A DNA stretch of 64,000 bases from Candidatus Terraquivivens yellowstonensis. GTDB lineage: Archaea; Thermoproteota; Nitrososphaeria_A; Caldarchaeales; Wolframiiraptoraceae. Positions 27,894 to 31,311 of this stretch are shown in pieces. The stretch lies in contig JAKCEW010000003.1 in the NCBI GenBank assembly GCA_023539445.1, forward strand, positions 71,948-135,947. Direction: 5' to 3'. Within the stretch, counting starts at the first letter, position 1, and the number at the start of each line of letters is the position of its first letter. Both the position numbers and the translations under genes were made by a program. The notes beneath the pieces were generated by a model, which saw only the letters and a list, made by a program, of their open reading frames with translations, made no database searches and had not been told where the DNA came from.

Positions 27894-28523
27894 CTAACGT
27901 TCCTTTCCCAAAAGCTCGTAAGCAGCTGCCAACGCACCATACAATGCCTTAATCCTATCGTTCGAGCCTGCTATGAGTACGACATCACCATCGGATGGTT
28001 TAAAGGAAGACATTATCATCGATGCAAAGTTCGGTTGCTCCTCGCTCAGATTGCTGACGCCTGGCATTAGCAGATTCCCTTCTTGCATAGCTATTACCAT
28101 GGCGGCATCCGCGCCTGCCCTTATCGCGGCATCCCTCTCTTCCAAACCCGTCCTCAATAGTTTGGCCATGCCCTTCACTTTTACACCAATGCTGTACCGA
28201 TAGTTCCAAGGCATATTCCCATTAAGCTCAACGAATTCGCCTATCTTTTTCCTCAATGCTTCATAAAGCTCCCTACCTTTCTCGGTTAAGCTACAACCCG
28301 AGCGGTCTACCTTGACGAGAGAGTGTTTCTTAAGCCTATTGATAACTGTCCTGATAGCACCCTCGCCTATACCGAGCTCTTCTGTGAACCTTTTCCTACC
28401 GAGGCTCCCCTTATCTCCCAAAACAAGGAGCGCCATGATAATGTGCGGAGCTGTGAAGGATGGTGATGGGCCTGGTGCTTTTCCTCTAGCGAGCTGACCT
28501 ATCTGCTCGTGAATGCTCAGCAC
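27894..28523 (-). CDS. Winged-helix transcriptional regulator with DUF4443-like C-terminal domain
   Basis: A 209-residue protein. Residues ~25-90 form a winged helix (IIMALLVLGDKGSLGRKRFTEEL, recognition helix GAIRTVINRLKKHSLV, wing DRSGCSLTEKGRELYEAL). The C-terminal ~110 residues form a small alpha/beta ligand-binding-like domain (DAAIRAGADAAMVIAMQEG, DGDVVLIAGSND). The layout resembles archaeal DUF4443 proteins. The ligand is unknown. Position directly upstream of the dehydrogenase suggests that gene as a target. Confidence 0.72.
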   Translation of the reverse strand: MLSIHEQIGQLARGKAPGPSPSFTAPHIIMALLVLGDKGSLGRKRFTEELGIGEGAIRTVINRLKKHSLVKVDRSGCSLTEKGRELYEALRKKIGEFVELNGNMPWNYRYSIGVKVKGMAKLLRTGLEERDAAIRAGADAAMVIAMQEGNLLMPGVSNLSEEQPNFASMIMSSFKPSDGDVVLIAGSNDRIKALYGALAAAYELLGKER

Positions 28524-29992: not shown

Positions 29993-31030
29993 TCATGCTA
30001 TATAATAGAGCTTTTGTCTCGCATCCCGAAGAAGCGGCTTCCTTTTTACCATTCCCTTGCCTATCAACAGCGCCAAGGCCTGCCTCATCGTCCTGTCGGG
30101 CAACATTGTCTTCCTTACCAGCTCCCTATGCGTAAGGGGTCCTTCGTACTCGAGTGTCTTAAGGATCAGTTTAGCACTTGGAGGTATTTTTAATAACTCC
30201 TCGGCGAGCTGCACCTTCTTCGCCATCTTCTCCAAAACGTAGGAGCTGCCCGGTAACCTCACCAGCCGTGCCGGGACGTCATGCTTTTTGATGCACACTT
30301 TGTTACTGACTTTGAGTCTAATCGTGCCGTCTATGACCACCTCGCACCTCGCTCTTGCATGTATGCCATTTATGAAGATTTTAGAGTCATCCGGTACGAT
30401 CAACGGTCTTCTTGTGACGTCTAAGGAGTTAACGGGCACTATCACGAGCACCTTTGACCTGTGAGCAACCATAGGCCCACCGGCGGATAATGCGTAAGCG
30501 CTCGAGCCTAAAGGTGTCGATATTATCACACCATCGCTATAATCCCTCCACACGATTTCATCATCGACCGTCAATGTGTACTCCATTATTGTAGCACTCT
30601 TCGAGGGGAAGATTGCAGCTTCATTCACCGCAGGCAGAACGTTTTTGTCATCCACAGAGACCGAGAGACGTGTGTTCTCCTCAACGACGAATCTCTTTTT
30701 TTGTAAATTCTCGAGTGCACGCGGTAGGTCCTTTACTGATATCTCTGTTAAGAACCCCCTAGTCTCCGTTTCGCATACGCCAAGCACGGGCACGTGCCTT
30801 GAGCCGAGCTCATGGAAAGCCTTTAGGACGTCGCTATCCGTTCCGACAACGATTGCTATATCATCCTCCGTGTACTCGGCGTCTGCTAGACTTTTCAAGG
30901 CCCTGTATTCCATGTTGAATGTCTCTATGGTTGCGCATACCTCCGCGGCCAGCTTTTCAGATCTGTTCGGTATCCTAATGTAGAGCAAAGACACGCACCG
31001 GCTTCCAACCAAGAATGGAGTTTTAACCAA
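29993..31030 (-). CDS. NAD kinase-like domain fused to a C-terminal winged helix
   Basis: Residues ~1-265 follow the NAD kinase fold: PVLGVCETETRGFLTEI, VNEAAIF (N136-E137), SDGVIISTPLGSSAYALSAGGP (~165-184; 20-residue core kept), and a LVLDG-like EVVIDG strand. The ATP-binding GGDGT of NAD kinases reads GTDSD (63-67): the central Asp is kept but the flanking Gly and Thr are lost. Residues ~275-345 form a winged helix (SAKLILKTLEYEGPLTHREL, PDRTMRQALALLIGKGMV). It may be a kinase with an unusual loop or an NAD(P)-sensing regulator. The TTG at 31030 is upstream of the expected leaderless start; GTG 30997 is a likely alternative. Confidence 0.8.
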   Translation of the reverse strand: MVKTPFLVGSRCVSLLYIRIPNRSEKLAAEVCATIETFNMEYRALKSLADAEYTEDDIAIVVGTDSDVLKAFHELGSRHVPVLGVCETETRGFLTEISVKDLPRALENLQKKRFVVEENTRLSVSVDDKNVLPAVNEAAIFPSKSATIMEYTLTVDDEIVWRDYSDGVIISTPLGSSAYALSAGGPMVAHRSKVLVIVPVNSLDVTRRPLIVPDDSKIFINGIHARARCEVVIDGTIRLKVSNKVCIKKHDVPARLVRLPGSSYVLEKMAKKVQLAEELLKIPPSAKLILKTLEYEGPLTHRELVRKTMLPDRTMRQALALLIGKGMVKRKPLLRDARQKLYYIA

Positions 31031-31044
31031 TCGTTATAAAAGCC

Positions 31045-31311
31045 TTATACCACTAAAGCTTCAGCCATACTGACAGACCCTTTACCGGCACCCACCACGC
31101 ATATATTTCGAATCCTTGAGAGGTCTTACTTTAAACGGCCGACATTCAACGTCTGACCTTTAATAAAAACAATTCTCCTGACGAGTTCATAGGAGTTCAC
31201 GGCCTTGATGGCATACTCAATTATATCCAGCGCAATCCTCCTTCCTTCCACATTACCATGGGAAAGTAATGCCTGCTTGTTCTTAATAACAGATTGACTT
31301 TGCCACTGCAT
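31045..31311 (-). pseudogene. N-terminal remnant of a glycerate 2-kinase (MOFRL/DUF4147 family)
   Basis: A minus-strand frame from ATG 31311 reads RRIALDIIEYAIKAVNSYEL, then FIKGQTLNVGRLK and a TAA at 31128-31126. In the same frame homology continues with DLSRIRNICVVGAGKGSVSM, the nucleotide-binding start of class II glycerate kinases, before a second TAA at 31047-31045. The first stop sits where relatives have Tyr before DLS. Only about 85 of the ~430-450 residues remain, so the gene is both interrupted and 3'-truncated. It lies between L15e and the NAD-kinase fusion gene. Confidence 0.75.

Follow-up and report, generated by a model that had tools for sequence, protein, structure and literature searches.

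Why should an archaeon keep a second NAD kinase gene whose product has lost its ATP-holding motif and carries a C-terminal DNA-binding domain? This question is raised by a minus-strand gene in a 64,000-nucleotide stretch (hereafter the window) of contig JAKCEW010000003.1 from Candidatus Terraquivivens yellowstonensis (GCA_023539445.1). The initial annotation proposed that a kinase had either turned into an NAD(P)-sensing transcription factor or regulates its own gene. Here, we followed up this proposal by domain searches, structure prediction and genome comparisons across the phylum, and our results support the transcription-factor reading, although for the member encoded in the window the role is inferred from its relatives.

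We first asked whether the unusual architecture is real. Pfam detected NAD_kinase_C (2.4e-23), the NAD_kinase N-domain (5.7e-7) and a weak MarR-like winged helix at residues 282-339. The loop on the ATP side reads GTDSD in place of GGDGT, while the motifs of the NAD site are intact (Table 1). A structure predicted with AlphaFold from 15 homologues (mean pLDDT 84) shows an NAD-kinase fold followed by the helices and two strands of a winged helix, and the best PDB matches of the whole protein in Foldseek are solved NAD kinases. The predicted winged helix alone (pLDDT 85.7) matches MarR proteins, several of them DNA-bound. In line with this, MarR_2 matches 36 of 37 family members at E<=0.01, while the protein of the window itself remains below the Pfam cut-off. 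Chance or a sequencing error can be excluded, since all six Terraquivivens genomes and nine genomes of a family of the order (f3 in our numbering of families) carry the same fusion with a degenerate motif; the other families and genera of the order have only a canonical kinase.

Table 1. Coordinates of the features discussed in the text. Positions refer to the window unless stated otherwise.
Feature	Position	Strand	Residues	Remark
NAD-kinase-like/winged-helix fusion gene	29993..31030	-	345 aa	TTG at 31030; true start possibly the TTG near 30988, the first start codon conserved in the genus
Degenerate GGDGT loop	30830..30844	-	63-67	GTDSD; the Asp is kept
NE short motif	30620..30625	-	136-137	kept
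Conserved region II	30494..30535	-	166-179	DGVIISTPLGSSAY, kept
IDG motif	30326..30334	-	233-235	kept
Linker helix and MarR-type winged helix	29996..30241	-	264-345	
Conserved promoter-like element	31034..31049	-		TATAAGGCTTTTATAA, upstream of the fusion gene in the genus
Gene fragment upstream of the fusion	31129-31311	-	61 aa	matches the N-terminus of a 461-aa gene
Small winged-helix-like protein (by eye)	27894-28523	-	209 aa	follows ftsY in the same gene run, conserved in the genus
nadA-nadC-nadX of the window's genome	7358-9953 of region L120 (contig G000:C11)			

The initial annotation knew of no characterised protein with this architecture, but the fusion turned out to be widespread. A profile search of 398 genomes of the phylum yielded full-length matches including the winged helix in well over 100 genomes from many families. 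In a tree of the kinase domain, 37 fusions fall on one side of a branch supported 100/99 against 17 canonical kinases, so that the architecture represents an old and stable paralogue. None of 68 fusions inspected has GGDGT, compared to 15 of 17 canonical kinases. The fourth position of the motif is R in 39, K in 19, S in 8, C in 1 and G in 1 of the fusions, whereas N136, D163, D166, G167, G175, S176, Y179, D234 and G235 are invariant, E or D occupies position 137 and GS[ST][AG]Y is kept. It has been stated that the GGDG motif is present in all NAD kinases and that 124 of 127 archaeal ones have GGDGT (PMC8553519). This pattern fits a retained NAD pocket and a lost phosphate-donor loop. However, the Asp of the motif, which takes a proton from the NAD 2'-hydroxyl in Listeria NADK1 (PMC8553519), is also invariant in the 68 fusions, so that loss of kinase activity is inferred and residual catalysis remains possible. 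Within the genus, the winged helix is 97% identical, the NAD-side domain 86% and the ATP-side domain 78%, which is the order expected of a regulator.

A separate canonical kinase is present as well. The window's genome encodes an NAD kinase with GGDGT elsewhere (G000:C8), and 27 of 30 fusion genomes have at least two NAD_kinase_C genes; the three exceptions are draft genomes of 70, 89 and 91% completeness. Those second genes that were read over the motif carry GGDGT and no winged helix, while four further ones were not recognised by our motif pattern and one is truncated. Some genomes have a third NAD_kinase_C protein of about 350-420 aa.

To get hints on the function of the fusion, we then analysed its gene neighbourhood. 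In the first 39 fusion regions outside the window's genus, chosen only for family diversity, nadA lies next to the fusion in 10, from six families (f10, f29, f62, f6, f46 and f13), mostly in divergent orientation and followed by nadC and nadX. A second batch of regions, partly chosen for these families, brought the count to 22 of 62. NCBIfam confirmed NadA, NadC and NadX in one of these regions (L070). Where nadA is not adjacent, the divergent neighbour is often a transporter. MFS transporters nearest the aromatic acid/H+ symporter family (below NCBIfam cut-offs in regions L069, L104 and L102) are divergent from the fusion in three families, represented by L069, L104, L100 and L102, and are candidate nicotinate importers. 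An APC-like permease (our reading of the sequence, without NCBIfam match) takes this position in three genomes of family f21 that are probably Metallosphaera and carry the fusion but no nadA, and ABC parts were found in two further regions. These transporters could import NAD precursors. A strict co-occurrence of fusion and nadA had to be rejected, as many genomes have one without the other.

Upon inspection of the promoters, we noticed GGCAATAATTGCC in L069 and near-copies in other regions. With at most one mismatch in ten positions, the palindrome GGCAA-N3-TTGCC lies within 150 bp upstream of the fusion in 13 of 62 regions from 8 of 17 families, while the same pattern occurs 35 times in 825 kb overall; of the regions with MFS transporters, L069 and L104 carry the palindrome. 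The palindrome was found by eye, and we tested it on other promoters, namely those of nadA in genomes in which the fusion lies elsewhere. It is present in 18 of 20 (nine exact) against 0.2 expected, but in none of 20 nadA promoters from genomes without the fusion, as judged by canonical-level scores in the profile search (Fisher p 3e-9). The 20 test genomes comprise 13 of family f7, 3 of f45, 2 of f41 and 2 of f13; they are not independent and Fisher's p overstates independence, but three families other than f7 contribute. A whole-genome scan of eight genomes with the tighter form GGCAATNATTGC yielded intergenic copies only at the fusion promoter, in five genomes of f10 and f44, whereas the other hits are inside genes.

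The palindrome could not be found at the promoters examined in the genus of the window. Upstream of the fusion, there is no conserved palindrome but only a promoter-like element, and the best match to GGCAA-N3-TTGCC at this place in the window has 4 mismatches. The palindrome is also absent upstream of nadA in the window's genome. That genome has no exact copy of GGCAANNNTTGCC, and the single-mismatch copies checked (about 40 of 51) all lie inside genes; exact hits in sister genomes lie in genes except one without an obvious NAD target. Moreover, the window's genome is the only one of six Terraquivivens genomes with nadA-nadC-nadX, possibly due to acquisition, loss or a mis-binned contig. The other five, and apparently the f3 genomes, have no nadA match although they keep the fusion, so nadA cannot be its target there. 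In this genus, the fusion gene lies between the L15e gene (with an enolase gene in between in two species) and prefoldin/ftsY genes. The 461-aa gene matched by the upstream fragment (glycerate-2-kinase-like, by eye) is whole and followed by an enolase gene in two Terraquivivens genomes, whereas the enolase gene is missing here in the window and two others; the DNA upstream of the fusion hence looks like a deletion scar.

Taken together, we suggest, with a probability of roughly 0.8, that the protein is a transcription factor derived from NAD kinase. In this reading, the NAD-kinase domain, with a crippled phosphate-donor loop but an intact NAD site, senses NAD or NADP, and the winged helix binds DNA as part of the dimer or tetramer typical of NAD kinases. 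Within the family, the palindrome would be bound in promoters of nadA-nadC-nadX, and in some lineages in the protein's own promoter or that of a divergent transporter. Most likely, NAD synthesis or precursor uptake is repressed when NAD(P) is plentiful, although ligand, DNA binding, direction of regulation and loss of kinase activity are inferred, and the role of the window's own member is inferred from the family. In a broader form, which we consider only slightly more likely than not, a new class of NAD(P)-responsive transcription factors made from a kinase-dead NAD kinase controls NAD synthesis across much of the phylum Thermoproteota/Nitrososphaerota, probably including ammonia oxidisers. 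The K or R replacing the fourth residue of GGDG could then read the 2'-phosphate of NADP and turn the protein into an NADP sensor, which is speculation.

But, could the protein still be an enzyme? A bifunctional protein, i.e. an active, perhaps slow, or polyphosphate- or otherwise fuelled NAD kinase that also represses NAD genes, would agree with the invariant catalytic Asp and NAD site, and the known regulators NadR and NrtR keep enzyme activity in some species (PMC6800001). We regard this as unlikely, since the fourth residue of GGDG, a Gly in all NAD kinases according to PMC8553519, is K, R or S in 66 of 68 members, canonical kinases are present and the ATP-side half evolves fastest. Even less probable is an ordinary second NAD kinase with the winged helix as a mere structural or oligomerisation appendage. 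Winged helices can mediate protein contacts and the NAD-kinase fold is intact, but the winged helix is the most conserved part in the genus and matches DNA-bound MarR structures, while gene linkage and palindrome distribution track nadA. It also appears improbable that the palindrome belongs to another NAD regulator that happens to co-occur with the fusion. No binding data link protein and palindrome, and in families f24, f55 and f42 no site was found near the fusion; however, the site lies in the divergent promoter of the fusion in several families and is absent from nadA promoters of the genomes lacking the fusion. Genes annotated as a second NAD kinase in these archaea are probably not simply kinases.

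Three types of NAD regulators, NadR, NiaR and NrtR, are described from bacteria (PMC6800001). Our searches, limited to open-licence literature, revealed neither an archaeal one nor an NAD kinase fused to a winged helix, so this would be the first archaeal NAD regulator that we can find, on a scaffold not known to sense NAD for transcription and with a predicted operator. Compared to canonical NAD kinase (NadK/PpnK), the fold, NE motif, conserved region II and IDG are shared, but GGDG is lost, PVNSxDxTRRPL replaces the canonical stretch and a C-terminal winged helix is added. NadR is an NAD-liganded repressor fused to enzyme domains of NAD metabolism, one of them a kinase (PMC6800001), but its NMN adenylyltransferase and ribosylnicotinamide kinase domains, which follow an N-terminal DNA-binding domain, found no match in our protein in Pfam or NCBIfam. 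Closest in logic is NrtR, an enzyme-derived DNA-binding protein whose gene lies opposite nadABC with an operator in between and of which some members have lost enzyme activity (PMC6800001); the fusion family resembles NrtR in logic but does not belong to it, as no Nudix domain was detected by Pfam and its scaffold is that of an NAD kinase.
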